The notes beneath the pieces are model-generated. The model ran no database searches. It was not told the DNA's origin and saw only the letters and a program-made list of their open reading frames with translations. Of a DNA stretch of 64,000 nucleotides, positions 12,848 to 63,284 are shown in pieces; the first letter of the stretch is position 1; each line of letters begins with the position of its first letter. The stretch is from Candidatus Syntrophocurvum alkaliphilum (GTDB lineage Bacteria > Bacillota > Syntrophomonadia > Syntrophomonadales > Syntrophomonadaceae): NCBI RefSeq assembly GCF_009734445.1, contig NZ_CP046457.1, positions 2,226,001-2,290,000 on the forward strand. The letters run 5' to 3'. The position numbers and the translations under genes are program-made.

Positions 12848-15800
12848 TTGTTAGATATTAATAATTTTGAGCGCATAAAAATATCCTTAGCTTCTCCAGA
12901 ACAAATTCGCTCATGGAGTAGTGGTGAGGTAAAAAAGCCTGAGACGATAAATTATCGTACACTAAGACCCGAAAAAGAAGGCTTGTTTTGTGAAAAGATT
13001 TTTGGTCCAGTTAAAGATTGGGAATGTCACTGTGGAAAATACAAAAGGGTGCGCCATAAAGGCATAGTTTGTGATCGTTGTGGTGTAGAAGTAACTACTT
13101 CTAAAGTAAGAAGAGAACGTATGGGTCACATTGAATTAGCTGCACCAGTATGTCACATATGGTACCTAAAAGGTATTCCAAGCCGCATGGGATTACTTAT
13201 GGACATGTCTCCCAAGGTGCTAGAAAAAGTAATTTATTTTGTTAATTACATTGTACTTGATCCTGGAGATACACCTTTACTTAAGAAGCAACTTCTTAGT
13301 GAAAGGGAGTATAGGGATCATAAGGAGCGCTATGGTGAAACCTTTACGGTTGGCATAGGAGCTGAAGCAATTAGAGCAATTTTAGAAGACATAGATTTAG
13401 AAAAGCTATCAGTTGATTTAAAGCAAGAAATATCATCAACAACCGGGCAGAGAAAAAGCAGAGCTATAAAAAGGCTCGAAGTAGTTGAAGCCTTTAGATT
13501 ATCTGATAATAACCCTAAGTGGATGATTATGGATGTACTACCCGTAATTCCACCGGAATTAAGGCCCATGGTTCAGTTAGATGGTGGTAGGTTTGCTACA
13601 TCTGACTTAAACGATTTATATCGCAGGGTTATAAATAGAAACAATCGACTAAAAAGATTATTAGATTTAGGTGCTCCAGATATAATTGTTAGAAATGAAA
13701 AAAGAATGCTACAGGAAGCAGTAGATGCTTTAGTGGATAATGGTAGAAGAGGTAGACCTGTTACTGGTCCTGGCAATCGTCCACTTAAATCATTAAGTGA
13801 TATGCTAAAAGGTAAACAGGGGCGTTTCCGTCAAAACCTTTTAGGGAAACGTGTTGATTACTCAGGAAGATCAGTTATAGTAATTGGTCCAAAGCTAGAC
13901 ATGCATCAATGTGGGCTTCCCAAGGAGATGGCACTAGAGTTATTTAAGCCATTTGTAATGAAAAAACTTGTAGATAAAGCAATAGCATCTAATATTAAAA
14001 GTGCTAAAAAGATGGTTGAAAGAGGACGAGAGGAAGTATGGGACATTCTAGAGGATGTTATTAAAGAACACCCTGTACTATTAAACCGTGCTCCAACACT
14101 ACACCGTTTGGGAATACAAAGTTTTGAACCAGTATTGGTTGAGGGGCGTGCTTTACAGATACATCCATTAGTATGTACAGCATACAATGCTGACTTTGAT
14201 GGTGACCAAATGGCTGTTCATGTACCTTTATCAGCTGAAGCACAAACAGAGGCAAGATTACTTATGCTTTCAAGCTGTAACATTCTAAATCCTAAAGACG
14301 GAAAGCCAGTAGTTACTCCTACTCAAGATATGGTTATAGGGTTATACTATTTGAACTATATGAGTGATGAAGAAGCAAACAAAAAAAATCCTAAGTCCTA
14401 TAGTAGCCCAGAAGAAACTCAAATGGCTCATGAATTAGGGCATATTAAGCTACAAGAAAAAATAAAGGTTAAGATACCTGCTAGCAAGGGTGGGTCAAAT
14501 GATCTTGTAGAGACAACAGTTGGGAGAATAATATTTAACGATGTTATACCAGATAGCTTAGGATATTTCAATCAAATGATAGACAAGAAAAAACTAGGTG
14601 ATATTATTTATGAATCCTATCGGTTTGAAGGTAATGCTAAAACAGCCCAAATGCTTGATGGTCTCAAAAGATTAGGGTATAAATACTCCACTAAAGGTGG
14701 CATAACTGTTGGGGTAACAGATTTTGAAACCCCAGAAACTAAATGGACTATTTTAGAAGAAGCAGACAAAATAGTTGATGATATACAATTTGATTATCAA
14801 GCAGGTCTGATAACAGATGAAGAACGTCATAATCAAGTAGTTGAGATATGGAACAATGCTACAGATGAAATAACTGATGAACTAAAAAAGTATCTAAGCA
14901 AAGAAAACCCAGTATATATGATGGCTACATCAGGTGCGCGTGGTAACTTCCAACAGATAAGACAATTAGCAGGTATGCGTGGACTAATGGCGGATCCATC
15001 AGGGAAAATTATAGATCTTCCAATAAAAGCAAACTTCCGTGAAGGCTTGACTGTACTAGATTATTTTATATCAACACATGGTGCAAGAAAAGGTCTTGCA
15101 GATACAGCCTTACGCACAGCAGACTCAGGTTACTTAACTAGAAGACTTGTTGATGTATCACAAGATGTTATAGTAAGGGAAGAAGATTGCGAATCAGTTG
15201 AAGGAATATGGGTAGAAAAAATAACTGAAGGCTCACAACTAATAGAACCTCTTCATCAAAGATTAGTTGGTAGAGTATCTATTGATACAATATTGCACCC
15301 TGAAACTGGTGAAGTAATAGTTTCAGAAAATGAAATGATTGATGATTATACAGCTAATCTAATAGAAAAATTGGGTATAGAAAAGTCTAAAATTAGAAGT
15401 GTATTAACATGTAAAACTAAACATGGTGTATGTAAAAAATGTTATGGTAGAAATCTAGCGACTGGGTATAACGTTGAAATAGGAGAAGCGGTTGGTATAA
15501 TAGCGGCTCAGTCAATAGGTGAGCCCGGAACACAGTTGACTATGAGAACTTTCCATACAGGTGGTGTAGCCGGTGATGATATAACTCGAGGCTTGCCACG
15601 CGTTGAAGAATTGTTTGAAGTTAGAAAGCCTAAAGGTCAAGCAATAGTTGCCGAAGTATCAGGTGTTGTTAGGTTTGGTGAAAACAAAGGTAGGCGCGAA
15701 GTAGAAGTATTAGATGATAATGGTGAGATTTTAGGAGCATTTCCTGTGCCATATGGTTCTAGATTAAAAGTCCAAGAGGGTGACTATGTAGAAATGGGAG

Positions 15801-35350: not shown

Positions 35351-36301
35351 ATGCTAGAAATGGAAAAACCCCGAATTGAATGTGTTGAAAAAAAAACAGA
35401 TAACAATTATGGGCGATTTGTGATTGAGCCTTTAGAAAGAGGTTATGGTACCACTTTGGGTAATTCTTTGCGCAGAGTACTACTATCTTCTCTTCCAGGG
35501 GCTGCTATTACATCCATAAAGATTGATGGAGTATTACATGAATTTTCTACTATTCCTGGAGTTGTAGAAGATACCACAGAAATAATCATTAATCTAAAAA
35601 AGCTGGTATTACGTTATGATGGAACCGAACGTAAGATAATACGGCTTTCACAACAGGGTAGAAAAGAAATAACAGCTAGCGATATAGAAACAGATGCTGA
35701 GGTAGAAATACTTAATCCAAATCTACACATAGCAACTTTAGATGAAGATGGAAAAATAGAAATGGAAATGACAGTTGAACGTGGTAGAGGATACATAAGC
35801 GCAGACCAGCAGGAAATAAAAAACGATGAAATCGTTGGCTTATTGCCCATTGATTCTATATTTACTCCAGCTATAAGAGTAAATTACACCGTAGACACTG
35901 CTAGAGTAGGAAAACGTACTGACTATGACAGCTTAATTCTAGAAGTGTGGACAAATGGAAGCATAAGTCCTGAGGAAGCTGTTAGTTTATCAGCACAAAT
36001 TATGATAGAGTATCTAAAACTTTTTACAGAAATAGATGATACTTATTCAGAGGTAGAAATTTTAGTTGAAAAAGAAGAAGAGAAGAAAGACAAAGTACTA
36101 GAAATGTCAATTGAAGAACTTGAATTATCAGTACGTGCTTCAAATGGCTTAAAAAGAGCGAATATAAATTCAGTAGGCGATCTTGTAGAAAAAACCCGTG
36201 ATGAGATGGGCAAAATAAGAAACCTTGGACAAAAATCGCTAGAGGAAATTGAAAGAAAACTAAAAGAACTAGATCTTTCCTTTAAGAAACCAGAAGATTA
36301 G
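35351..36301 (+). CDS. rpoA: DNA-directed RNA polymerase subunit alpha
   Basis: Assembly platform of RNA polymerase. N-terminal domain: [20 protein letters not shown] and [21 protein letters not shown]-terminal domain with helix-hairpin-helix motifs ([20 protein letters not shown] and [19 protein letters not shown]), the UP-element and activator contact. Length 316 aa. AAGGAGGGGG precedes ATG. Confidence 0.98.
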
Positions 36302-36316
36302 AAAGGAGGGGACTCA

Positions 36317-36658
36317 GTGAGTTATAGAAAGTTAGGATTTAGAAGTGATCATAGAAGATCTATGTTAAGAAATTCAGTAACGTCTTTACTAGAGCATGAA
36401 AAAATAGTTACAACAGAATCTAGGGCAAAAGAAATTAGAAAAAGTGCTGAAAAGATAATTACACTTGGGAAAAGAGGAGATTTACATGCCAGAAGGCAAG
36501 CACTTTCCTACTTATTTAATGAAGATACAGTCAGTAAGGTTTTTAGCGATTTAGCTGAAAGGTATACAGATCGTCAAGGTGGCTATACGAGAATAATTAA
36601 GACGGGTGCTAGAAAAGGCGATGGTGCACCAATGGTAATTATAGAATTGGTTGATTAA
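36317..36658 (+). CDS. rplQ: 50S ribosomal protein L17
   Basis: Tunnel-exit protein. GTG start after AAAGGAGGGG; opens [20 protein letters not shown], then [20 protein letters not shown] and C-terminal [20 protein letters not shown]. Length 113 aa. Ends the alpha operon; the ECF transporter genes follow immediately. Confidence 0.97.
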
Positions 36659-36659
36659 A

Positions 36660-37481
36660 ATGATTCAACTAGATAATGTTAGTTATTCTTATGACAACAA
36701 ATATCTAGCATTAAATAAGATATATCTACACATCAATAATGGAGAACATGTAGCAATCCTAGGGAGCAATGGTTCTGGAAAATCTACATTAGCTAGACTA
36801 TTAAATGGTCTCTTAACTCCTACTGAAGGTAGAGTAATTATAGATGGTTTAGATACTAGCAAACCTAAGCACAACAAAAGAATAAAACAAAAAGTTGGAT
36901 TACTAGTATCATCTCCAGATGATCAGATAGTTGCATCAATTGTAGAAGAAGACATAGCATTCGGTCCTGAAAATTTAGGTTTATCCCCTAAAGAAATAAA
37001 AAAAAGAGTTAAAAATGCTCTTAAGATGGTATCAATGGAGGAATACAATGTATATCCTCCTAATCTTTTATCTGGGGGACAAAAACAAAAAATATGTATA
37101 GCAGGTGTATTAGCATTAAAACCTAGCTACTTAGTACTTGATGAACCTACAACAATGCTAGATTTTAAAAGTAAGAAAGACATAATAAACACCTTACTAA
37201 CTCTAAACAAAAAAGAAAATAAATCATTAATAAATATTACACATAATGCTGATGAAGCAATTTTTGCTGATAGGGCTATAGTTCTTAATAAAGGAAAAAT
37301 AGTCTTAGAAGGTCCAACAAAAGAAGTTTTAACCCAAAGCAACTTACTTGAAAAATTAGGGGTTGAACCTTTAGATGTAAGCAAAATTGTAGAGAATGTA
37401 AATAATAAAAGCAAATTTACCTTAGATAAGTCAATACTAAAAGATGAAGAATTGGTGGATGCACTATGTCAATTAAAGTAG
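36660..37481 (+). CDS. ecfA1: ECF transporter ATPase EcfA (first copy)
   Basis: ATP-binding subunit of the energizing module shared by vitamin/metal ECF transporters. Walker A GSNGSGKST (about residues 37-45), signature LSGGQKQKICIAG, Walker B LVLDEPTTMLD and a H-loop ITHNADEA. ATG 36660 follows the rplQ stop by one base; an in-frame TTG at 36651 overlaps rplQ. There is no strong ribosome site, so coupling to rplQ translation is likely. 273 aa. Overlaps the next ATPase gene by 16 bp. Confidence 0.92.
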   Translation: MIQLDNVSYSYDNKYLALNKIYLHINNGEHVAILGSNGSGKSTLARLLNGLLTPTEGRVIIDGLDTSKPKHNKRIKQKVGLLVSSPDDQIVASIVEEDIAFGPENLGLSPKEIKKRVKNALKMVSMEEYNVYPPNLLSGGQKQKICIAGVLALKPSYLVLDEPTTMLDFKSKKDIINTLLTLNKKENKSLINITHNADEAIFADRAIVLNKGKIVLEGPTKEVLTQSNLLEKLGVEPLDVSKIVENVNNKSKFTLDKSILKDEELVDALCQLK

Positions 37482-39123: not shown

Positions 39124-39222
39124 TATATCACGGGGATGTACGGGGGCGGTATATCACGGGGACGGTTCCTTTGGTATATTTTCTTAAACATATCAAAGGA
39201 ACCGTCCCCCCCGATCGGAGGG
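39124..39222 (+). repeat. REP-like GC-rich hairpin (GGGACGGTTC family) between ecfT and truA
   Basis: GGGGACGGTTCCTTTG (39158-39173) pairs with its inverse CAAAGGAACCGTCCCC (ending about 39209), extended by near-matching AT-rich arms. Before it is a direct repeat, TATATCACGGGGA, at 39124-39136 and 39150-39162. The core GGGACGGTTC is shared with the repeats that bracket the transposase gene at 60246. It is GC-rich against an AT-rich background. It lies inside the ecfT-truA gap and ends just before the truA ribosome site. Confidence 0.85.
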
Positions 39223-60161: not shown

Positions 60162-60202
60162 AAAAAAGGAAGCATAGGGACGGTTCTTTTGCTTCCTTTT
60201 TT
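60162..60202 (+). repeat. REP-like hairpin, left flank of transposase
   Basis: AAAAAAGGAAGCA (60162-60174) pairs with TGCTTCCTTTTTT (60190-60202) around a loop carrying GGGACGGTTC. The right flank (61018-61058) is its exact inverse over the 29-bp core. The T-run makes it a possible terminator as well. Confidence 0.9.
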
Positions 60203-60245
60203 GTGGTAAGATATAACAAAATTAATTGGGGGGGGAGGTCAAAAA

Positions 60246-61019
60246 GTGCCACGTCAACCTAGAGTCAAAAGTGAAAGCGGGATATATCATGTAATGTTAC
60301 GCGGAGTAAGGAAACAAGATATTTTTCATGATGACGAGGACTGCTTAAGATTTCTTACTACAATCAAAAGATACAAAAAGCAGTCACAGATAAATGTATA
60401 TGGATGGTGTCTAATGGGAAACCATGTACATTTGCTATTGAAAGAAGGTAATGAAAATATAAGTACAACAATGAAAAGAATAGGGGTAAGTTATGTCTGG
60501 TTTTATAACCAAAAATATAAAACAGTAGGTCACTTATTTCAAGATAGATACAAAAGTGAACAAATTGAGACTGATGAGTATTTATTAACGGTAATTCGCT
60601 ATATACACCAAAATCCCGTAAAAGCAGGTTTTGCAAAAACACCAGCGAGTTGGAGATGGAGTAGTTGTTTTGGTTATTATGGAAAAGAATACGAACCAGT
60701 TGCACTACTTGATGACCAATTAATATTAGGTTTATTTGCACATAATCAAACTGTAGCAAGAGATGAATTTAAGGATTTTAATGAAATAAAAAATGATGAC
60801 CAATGTCTTGATGATAAATATATTAAAAAATTAACTGATGAAGAAGCTTTACAGGAAATAAACAAATTACAGTTAGGGTTAGATTTAGAAGCAATAAAAA
60901 AATTACCAAAAACAAAACGAAACGTAATTATATCTCAAATTAAAACTATTGAAGGATTAACCCAAAGGCAAATAGCTCGAATTCTTAATATATCGGAAAA
61001 TGTAATTTTTAAAGCTTAA
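60246..61019 (+). CDS. REP-associated tyrosine transposase (HUH/Y1, IS200-like)
   Basis: 257-aa protein. The HUH metal motif is NHVHLLL (residues 58-64). The Y1 domain includes GIYHVMLRGVRKQDIF at the N-terminus, GHLFQDRYKSEQI, and the catalytic-helix segment VIRYIHQNPVKAGF with the tyrosine. The C-terminal part adds a helix-turn-helix (GLTQRQIARILNISENVIF) not present in plain IS200 TnpA. GTG start after GGGGGGGAGG. The gene ends at 61019, inside the right flanking hairpin. Full length and intact, so it could still be active. Confidence 0.9.
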   Translation: MPRQPRVKSESGIYHVMLRGVRKQDIFHDDEDCLRFLTTIKRYKKQSQINVYGWCLMGNHVHLLLKEGNENISTTMKRIGVSYVWFYNQKYKTVGHLFQDRYKSEQIETDEYLLTVIRYIHQNPVKAGFAKTPASWRWSSCFGYYGKEYEPVALLDDQLILGLFAHNQTVARDEFKDFNEIKNDDQCLDDKYIKKLTDEEALQEINKLQLGLDLEAIKKLPKTKRNVIISQIKTIEGLTQRQIARILNISENVIFKA

Positions 61020-61058
61020 AAAAGGAAGCAAAAGAACCGTCCCTATGCTTCCTTTATA
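61018..61058 (-). repeat. REP-like hairpin, right flank of transposase
   Basis: AAAGGAAGCA (61021-61030) pairs with TGCTTCCTTT (61046-61055), with loop carrying GAACCGTCCC. It is the reverse complement of the left flank. Its first bases form the transposase stop codon, and the recQ ribosome site (GGGGAGGG) begins just after it. Confidence 0.9.
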
Positions 61059-61073: not shown

Positions 61074-63227
61074 ATGGAGTCTGCACTAGCGGCAATGGCT
61101 CAGTATTTTGGTTACCAAGATTTTAAACCAGGACAAAGAGAGATAATAGATGGAATTTTAGATTCTCGTGATGTTATAGGTGTGATGCCTACAGGTGGAG
61201 GAAAATCACTTTGCTATCAATTACCGGGTTTGGTTTTATCCGGGATAACTTTGGTGATATCTCCTTTGATTGCATTAATGAAGGATCAAGTAGATGCACT
61301 TAATAATCAAGGGGTACCTGCATCTTTTATTAATAGTTCATTGAACTTAAGTGAAATACAAGCACGCTTAAAGCTAGCATATAATGGTGAAGTTAAACTA
61401 TTATATATTGCTCCAGAACGCTTAGATTCAAAAGACTTTACTAGATTACTTTATAACCTTCCTATTTCTTTAATAGCAATTGATGAAGCGCATTGTGTAT
61501 CACAATGGGGGCATGATTTTAGACCAAGTTATTTAAATATTAGATCATGGATTGAAGCAATGAAAAATCGACCAGTGGTAGCAGCTTTTACTGCTACGGC
61601 TACTACTCGTGTACGTCAAGATATTATAGAAAACTTAGGGCTTAAACAGCCTAAAACTATAATTAATAGCTTTAATCGCCCTAATCTTTACTTTGCCGTT
61701 AATAAGGGAGTAGATCGAATAAGGTATATTAGTAATTATATAGATAAGCATCCTAATCAGTCAGGGATAATTTATGCTGCAACACGTAAAGAGGTTGAAA
61801 ATATTTTTGAACAACTACTAACAAAAAATTATTCGGTAGCAAAATACCATGCAGGTTTAAAAACTGAAGAAAGAACTAAAAATCAAGAAGACTTTTTACA
61901 TGATCGTATTAAAGTAATGATAGCAACAAATGCATTTGGCATGGGGATAGATAAATCAAATATTAGTTTTGTTATTCACCATAACATGCCCAGGCACCTA
62001 GAAGCTTACTATCAAGAAGCTGGTCGTGCAGGACGTGATGGGCAACCGGCAGAATGCATTCTTTTATACCATCCTTCAGACATACAAATACAAAAATATT
62101 TTATAGAAAATGCAAACTTAGCCGAAAAAAGAAAAATATCGGAATACGAAAAACTAAAAAACATAATTGATTACTGTCATAGTCCCCGTTGTCTAAGGGA
62201 AAACATATTGAAATATTTCGGTGAATTAAGTACAAGTGATAATTGCGATAATTGTGCTAATTGTAAAGAGCAGGAAATAGTGGATATTACCATAGAAGCA
62301 CAAAAGATTTTCTCTTGTATAATTAGAATGAGAGAACAATATGGCAGCAAAATTATTGCTGCTGTTCTAAAAGGTTCCCAACAAAAAAGAGTATTTGAGC
62401 TAGGGTTTGAAAAATTGTCGACTTATGGAATTATGAATAACCTCACAATGCCTCAAATTACCGAGTATATTAACATTCTAGCTGCTGAGGATTTTTTAAC
62501 CATTACTAATGGGCAATACCCAGTAGTTAAAATGAAATCAAAAGCCTTACCAGTACTTAGAGGACAAGAGAAAATTCTTATTAGACGTCCAAAAGCAACT
62601 GAGACTACAGTTTATGAAAACGAACTTTTTGAAGCACTTCGTAATTTGCGTCAGGAAATAGCGCAACAACAAGGTGTTCCACCTTATGTTATATTTGCAG
62701 ACAAAACATTGTGGGAAATGTGTGAGTATCTACCCCTCAATGTAGAAGCTATGTTATGTATTAATGGAGTAGGTCAAGTAAAATTTGAAAGATATGGTGA
62801 AAAATTTTTAGAAATCATAAAAAATTATACAGAAGCTAACTTACAAGGTTCAATTGAAAATTCTCAAAACAATGACACCTCAATAGAATCAACTAATTCT
62901 AAAACCAAAAAGAAAACTAAAGAATCTAAAACTCCAACTCATGTACTATCATGGCAGATGTACCAAGAAGGTAAAAGTTTATCAGATATATCAAAAGTAC
63001 GGGAATTAAAAATTACAACCATAGAAGAGCATATTATAAAAGCTGTTCAAAATGGCTATAGTGTGGAATGGTACGATTTTATTACTCCTGAAACTGAAGC
63101 AAAAGTTTTAGAAAAGGTCAACACCATAGGAGTTGAAAAATTAAAGCCAATTAAAGAGTCTTTACCTGATAAAATAAGTTATTTTGATATTAAGATTGCA
63201 CTCTTAAAAAATGAACTAAAAAAATAA
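61074..63227 (+). CDS. recQ: ATP-dependent DNA helicase RecQ
   Basis: Superfamily 2 3'-5' helicase in recombination repair. Motif I MPTGGGKSLCYQLP near residue 40, DEAH box AIDEAHCVSQWGHDFRPSY near 138, motif III FTATAT, motif VI EAGRAGRDGQPAEC. Zinc site CHSPRC ... CDNCANC, then winged-helix RQC and HRDC (ELFEALRNLRQEIAQQQGVP near residue 525). An extra C-terminal part of about 100 residues (WQMYQEGKSLSDISKVREL) looks like a helix-turn-helix. Length 717 aa; longer than E. coli RecQ (609). ATG after GGGGAGGG. Confidence 0.95.
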   Translation: MESALAAMAQYFGYQDFKPGQREIIDGILDSRDVIGVMPTGGGKSLCYQLPGLVLSGITLVISPLIALMKDQVDALNNQGVPASFINSSLNLSEIQARLKLAYNGEVKLLYIAPERLDSKDFTRLLYNLPISLIAIDEAHCVSQWGHDFRPSYLNIRSWIEAMKNRPVVAAFTATATTRVRQDIIENLGLKQPKTIINSFNRPNLYFAVNKGVDRIRYISNYIDKHPNQSGIIYAATRKEVENIFEQLLTKNYSVAKYHAGLKTEERTKNQEDFLHDRIKVMIATNAFGMGIDKSNISFVIHHNMPRHLEAYYQEAGRAGRDGQPAECILLYHPSDIQIQKYFIENANLAEKRKISEYEKLKNIIDYCHSPRCLRENILKYFGELSTSDNCDNCANCKEQEIVDITIEAQKIFSCIIRMREQYGSKIIAAVLKGSQQKRVFELGFEKLSTYGIMNNLTMPQITEYINILAAEDFLTITNGQYPVVKMKSKALPVLRGQEKILIRRPKATETTVYENELFEALRNLRQEIAQQQGVPPYVIFADKTLWEMCEYLPLNVEAMLCINGVGQVKFERYGEKFLEIIKNYTEANLQGSIENSQNNDTSIESTNSKTKKKTKESKTPTHVLSWQMYQEGKSLSDISKVRELKITTIEEHIIKAVQNGYSVEWYDFITPETEAKVLEKVNTIGVEKLKPIKESLPDKISYFDIKIALLKNELKK

Positions 63228-63252: not shown

Positions 63253-63284
63253 AAGGAAGCAAAAGAACCGTCCCCGTGCTTCCT
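63253..63284 (-). repeat. REP-like hairpin, solo copy between recQ and the 3D gene
   Basis: AGGAAGC ... GCTTCCT stem with GAACCGTCCCC in the loop; 27-29 of the core positions match the transposase right flank. It overlaps the last two bases of the 3D-domain gene stop codon (TAG, 63285-63283 on the minus strand). Confidence 0.88.

Follow-up and report, generated by a model that had tools for sequence, protein, structure and literature searches.

The gene for an HUH-tyrosine transposase in Candidatus Syntrophocurvum alkaliphilum, together with the short inverted hairpins on either side of it, probably constitutes a compact TIRYT unit in which an endonuclease gene lies between its own recognition hairpins and is accompanied by dispersed repeats that the enzyme would process. 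What is new is the substrate rule and a recognition hypothesis; the enzyme class is already known. We computed the anatomy of the locus, the matching of stems, the conservation of the loop, the covariation within the stem, the link between repeat copy number and enzyme presence, and the covariation of the stem with a C-terminal helix-turn-helix (HTH). These analyses establish that 121 non-redundant relatives are flanked by one rigid hairpin with a variable complementary stem, and that the genome, for which a single enzyme had been noted earlier, has three enzymes with three matched repeat families.

The locus lies in a window of 64,000 nucleotides, the whole stretch of DNA that was analyzed, where a repeat search identified perfect 38-nt inverted arms at 60165-60202 (+ strand) and 61018-61055 (- strand), each containing an identical 29-nt hairpin unit, GGAAGCATAGGGACGGTTCTTTTGCTTCC, at 60168-60196 (+) and 61024-61052 (-), as an initial annotation of this DNA had proposed. 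The upstream unit, delimited by its sequence, its DNA fold (-5.1 kcal/mol, z -3.9) and the family-wide register described below, has a 7-bp stem (GGAAGCA/TGCTTCC) and a loop TAGGGACGGTTCTTT with the core GGGACGGTTC at 60177-60186. Between the arms a GTG start at 60246, preceded by a likely ribosome binding site (GGAGG, 60234-60238, +), opens a reading frame for 257 aa (60246-61019, +). The suggestion that the downstream hairpin supplies the stop codon had to be dropped, as the TAA at 61017-61019 precedes the hairpin and the overlap consists of the two outer A's of the arm. Of the two further copies thought to lie nearby, one is genuine (63255-63283, -; GGAAGCACGGGGACGGTTCTTTTGCTTCC) and differs in having CG in place of TA before the core, which is the commoner variant in the genome. 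The other, an inverted pair with approximate borders (39146-39221, assigned to neither strand), shares the 10-nt core and has a different stem, TATATCA, that fits none of the genome's three enzymes and possibly represents an orphan family. The exact 20-mer GGGACGGTTCTTTTGCTTCC occurs three times in the window as compared to 0.02 expected by chance. Additionally, recQ (61074-63227) is located directly downstream of the enzyme gene with the third hairpin following it; a link with recQ was rejected, there being no recQ neighbor in 80 related loci.

The identification of the gene product as an HUH transposase was borne out by matches to Pfam Y1_Tnp (7.6e-14) and, above cut-off, to the NCBIfam model for REP-associated tyrosine transposases. 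The HUH motif H60-V61-H62 (60423-60431, +), situated on a strand of the model, the presumed catalytic tyrosine Y119 (60600-60602, +), whose role is taken from TnpAREP (PMC6006769), and N123 four residues further on are invariant among 49 relatives; all four residues (H60, H62, Y119, N123) align with the TnpAREP structure 4er8, Y119 with its YIYINPVKHG segment. It therefore has the features of a class 2 TnpAY1 protein, namely a Y1 domain with HUH, a single catalytic Tyr and an Asn four residues after it. An AlphaFold model (mean pLDDT 93.7) shows an HUH-type core with a three-helix HTH set apart from it, with helices predicted at residues 222-233, 240-247 and 251-256, in agreement with the extra C-terminal HTH that had been called from the sequence. 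This domain (residues 222-256; 60909-61013, +) also gives weak matches to Sigma70_r4/HTH families and tracks the repeat stem. The best structural match of the model is 4er8, which is TnpAREP bound to a REP hairpin (E 1.8e-8), followed by the TnpA proteins of IS608 and ISDra2.

Repeats of this kind are abundant in the genome, a single contig of 2.36 Mb. Exact GGGACGGTTC cores number 133 as compared to 2 for a reversed control, and matches to a 16-mer with at most two mismatches number 50 as compared to 0. We examined 131 of the 133 cores, in stretches around the listed sites, and 125 of these are intergenic in regions that are approximately 85% predicted coding, which confirms the expected intergenic bias. 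Of the 131 cores, 47 stand alone and the rest form 42 close pairs. In 41 of these pairs the units face inward with a core spacing of 22-51 nt, and the remaining pair is in tandem; as in REPINs, there are thus inverted two-hairpin units with many intergenic copies. The paired form folds into a nearly perfect 64-nt hairpin (-40.4 kcal/mol), and an Rfam search returned no match. By stem, there are three main families, of 35 (GGAAGC), 51 (GAACA/AAACA) and 39 cores (GAGTCAA), and each of the three enzymes is flanked by its own stem family, with the loop core GGGGACGGTTC common to all. Three GGAAGC-type pairs (L004, L012 and L028, at 1.107, 1.523 and 2.047 Mb of the genome) have differing left flanks and a common right flank that resembles the end of a 5S rRNA gene, and these pairs were probably copied along with rRNA operons. 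Some inward repeats are further apart. At L176 (genome 189722-191370), for example, a GAACA-type repeat marks the end of a serine-hydrolase-like ORF, and two inward repeats with 1.25 kb between them flank a carbamate-kinase-like gene. Comparable inward pairs surround a methyltransferase-like ORF (35683-36707) and one that is acetyltransferase-like (13490-14499). Repeat-bracketed passenger genes were not upheld as a class: the ORFs inside inward pairs 1-1.6 kb apart are unrelated, and the orientation counts are too small to support a claim. Passenger capture by inward repeat pairs is possible.

The same arrangement is found well beyond this species. In loci drawn from named genomes, 60 relatives and a phylum sample, matched inverted repeats carrying a GGGAC-type core flank 143 of 203 full-length genes. 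Of 400 mismatched up/down pairings in an earlier set, 28 passed the same cut-off, such that about 7% of single calls may be due to chance. Removal of proteins that are at least 85% identical left 121 enzymes. The hairpins follow one register, in which positions -k and 12+k pair around a loop of 13 nt whose first bases are the core [G/A]GGGAC, and this register is obeyed by 164 of 187 well-stemmed hairpins. GGGGACG is the core in 175 of 242 hairpins and AGGGACG in 34, although conservation at positions 0-6 is partly by construction since the core-finding pattern fixes them; GTTC after the core, the closing C-G pair and the pairing of the stem are not fixed by the search pattern. In contrast to the core, the stem varies, with 61 distinct 6-nt stems among 94 enzymes. 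A stem score of at least 5 was reached by 72% of hairpins built from a locus's own arms versus 15% when arms were swapped between loci (p=1.6e-34 in the earlier set), and all Watson-Crick types occur at the variable stem pairs in that earlier set. No conserved sequence was found 5' of the stem in the 242 hairpins, including GTAG at the hairpin foot (8, versus 11 in shuffled sequence).

Repeat copy number is tied to the presence of an enzyme. The 398 phylum genomes surveyed include 109 with an enzyme, of which 60 have 10 or more GGGGACGGTTC copies, and 289 without, of which 15 do (odds ratio 22, p=6e-27). When 12 of these 15 repeat-rich, enzyme-less genomes were searched again with a larger profile, 7 gave no match and 5 gave fragments only, which fits repeats outliving their enzyme. 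Three single-contig genomes with 33-34 GGGGACGGTTC copies each are apparently orphan repeat populations; G038 has no enzyme match, G154 one fragment and G375 three fragments. The initial view of the locus as a RAYT/REP system consequently stands insofar as it proposes that the enzyme has dispersed, substrate-like repeats of its own, which are genome-wide, intergenic, arranged in inverted pairs and tied in number to the enzyme. It does not stand as a canonical RAYT/REP set, given the lack of a GTAG tag, the location of the conserved motif in the loop and flanks of the TIRYT class.

Which part of the enzyme goes with the stem was addressed by regressing pairwise stem similarity on the identity of five protein segments among 94 enzymes. 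The HTH carries by far the largest weight (beta 0.19, reached by 0 of 1000 permutations, p<0.001), residues 51-90 have a weak effect (0.10, p=0.024), and the linker at 141-200 has none (beta 0.00) despite being equally diverged (mean identity 0.27 versus 0.29 for the HTH). The HTH effect is kept for pairs below 50% identity (p 0.002) and below 45% (p 0.022). For example, the closest enzymes with GAAGC stems, which come from several genera including Metabacillus and Anaerobacterium, have a nearly common HTH sequence containing QRQxAR followed by G(I/L/V)S, N and FKA. On these comparisons we lean toward the HTH being the part that reads the stem. A possible but less probable account is that the system is the same while the HTH binds elsewhere or multimerizes, with the covariation arising from shared ancestry and unequal rates. 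Gene-label permutation removes ancestry incompletely, no residue pair between HTH and stem rises above permutations, and with the window protein as sole reference the HTH, the N-terminal part and the linker predict a stem match equally; part of the signal may therefore be due to common descent. A role for this domain in target recognition has also been doubted because the repeat motif is unlike DnaA boxes (PMC6006769). Against this account are the lack of any effect from a linker as diverged as the HTH and the persistence of the HTH effect among distant pairs.

In the mode of action that we propose, the gene would encode a single-strand-specific HUH-tyrosine endonuclease and be bracketed by inverted copies of the enzyme's own recognition hairpin, which would form in single-stranded DNA such as the lagging-strand template. 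Within the enzyme, the catalytic domain (H60, H62, Y119) would recognize the invariant loop core GGGGAC and cut at or near it, and the C-terminal HTH would contact the stem, whose 6-7 bp vary from enzyme to enzyme. Different stems joined to a common core would let one chromosome host several enzymes, each maintaining a repeat population of its own. The dispersed hairpins, alone or as REPIN-like inward pairs, would be a non-autonomous population that the enzyme processes, or once did, and that is presumably copied by it in trans. A broader generalization, that this is a modular REP system combining a near-universal cleavage core in the loop with a private stem address read by the HTH, and that specificity shifts through co-evolution of HTH and stem, is one we advance tentatively and with somewhat less than even confidence; stacked 5' half-units may trace its cutting and joining. 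Such half-units are seen in the genome, where 40 of 131 cores have an extra 5' arm of the same orientation within 60 nt upstream, as compared to 2 for a reversed-arm control. In the vicinity of full units there are 43 extra 5' halves (arm plus G-run) as compared to about 2 true extra 3' halves, the other listed 3' half matches being reversed 5' arms. Stacking of 5' halves also occurs in other genera (for example, at L073, L100, L108 and L131) and may reflect a cut just after GGGGAC with joining to a new copy, or else slippage.

It is unlikely that the locus is instead an ordinary autonomous insertion sequence with the hairpins as its ends and the dispersed copies as internally deleted, MITE-like derivatives or scars of past insertions. 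Perfect inverted repeats do bracket the gene tightly and some genomes have up to nine enzyme matches, but the three genes of this genome are single-copy and mutually divergent (the window protein is 43% and 38% identical to the other two, a range given also as 38-44%) and are not recent duplicates. Relatives are furthermore rare in plasmids (27 of 72,556 records, all below 60% identity) and phages (1 of 50,697 records). The dispersed repeats, moreover, occur either as single hairpins or as pairs whose polarity is fixed and whose spacing varies little. That the genes are single-copy and almost missing from plasmids and phages fits vertical inheritance, as has been reported for other RAYTs (PMC8049555). 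In Anaerovirgula multivorans, two truncated enzyme genes with the same match are found at contig ends (L126, L127) and may represent a multi-copy, recently mobile version. A comparison of genome G021 with its sister species G035 (same genus, approximately 90% identical, syntenic flanks) revealed no clean empty site among about 20 repeat sites; the contig pair first chosen for this comparison was not syntenic. At three or more matching intergenic positions the two genomes hold repeats of different stem types, and the repeats therefore turn over. Finally, it is highly improbable that the hairpins belong to the host, for instance as terminators or protein binding sites, and adjoin the gene by chance, since their intergenic position and the strong fold of the paired form are outweighed by 121 non-redundant enzymes with matched repeats on both sides and by a copy number that follows enzyme presence. 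A terminator role was rejected, with no excess between convergent genes (15 found versus 13-14 expected).

Among known systems, domain layout and repeat motif would place the TIRYT unit described here in TnpAREP subclass 2.1, probably 2.1.2, which is equivalent to RAYT group 1 of Bertels 2017 (PMC6006769). TIRYT/TIRtron genes with GGGGWSAS repeats were described by Di Nocera et al. 2013 (PMC3733652), and most TIRYTs have been identified with subclass 2.1 (PMC6006769). In the former description, a RAYT-like gene likewise lies between terminal inverted repeats with a GGGG-containing motif, and some repeat families are dispersed, often as dimers, or self-complementary. Our locus has perfect 38-nt repeats with AGGGACGG, a position or two off the published consensus, and the HTH extension of TIRYTs as judged by the AlphaFold model and weak HTH-family matches. 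Unlike the described motif, that of the hairpins analyzed here is mostly GGGGACGG (142 of 242), with exact GGGGWSAS in 23 of 242; the consistent loop and stem rule, the privacy of stems and the HTH covariation go beyond what the consulted text of that paper describes. Subclass 2.1 members share the HUH-Y core, the C-terminal HTH extension and a wide bacterial range, but a published survey (PMC6006769) reported no REP-like sequences near their genes and left their C-terminal domain unexplained, whereas a fixed-register hairpin flanks most genes here.

Classical REPtrons of groups 2 and 3 (E. coli, S. maltophilia and Marinomonas), the only groups covered by the biochemistry in PMC8266576, also combine an HUH enzyme with short intergenic hairpins, inverted dimers and enzyme-repeat co-evolution. 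They differ from the present system, which has no GTAG guide 5' of the hairpin, carries its motif in the loop and has an extra HTH, and a classical GTAG-REP RAYT was rejected on the GTAG counts given above. IS200/IS605 TnpA proteins (IS608, ISDra2) share the HUH-Y fold and hairpin substrates, but here there is an extra HTH and two inverted repeats as opposed to distinct left and right ends; membership of that family was rejected, the genome having three mutually divergent genes and no multi-copy element. The reverse complement of the core contains CGTC, as do CGTC-tagged palindromes; in those palindromes (PMC3733652) CGTC is an unpaired tag at the hairpin end with no linked transposase, whereas here it is in the loop and beside a transposase, and the CGTC-REP class was rejected on account of this loop position. 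A text search of the open literature, of incomplete coverage, found no related paper for the core sequence.

Within the RAYTs, subclass 2.1 (group 1) is large, its substrate is not agreed upon and its extra domain lacks an explanation (PMC6006769). A rule that describes the hairpin of most members sampled here, together with a domain that covaries with the stem, provides a defined substrate and a testable model of recognition, in which the loop core is most likely the target of the catalytic domain and the stem is most likely read by the HTH. The presence of three matched enzyme-repeat pairs in one bacterium constitutes a ready-made specificity experiment. A stem that varies in step with one end of the enzyme suggests a way for each enzyme to select its own repeats.
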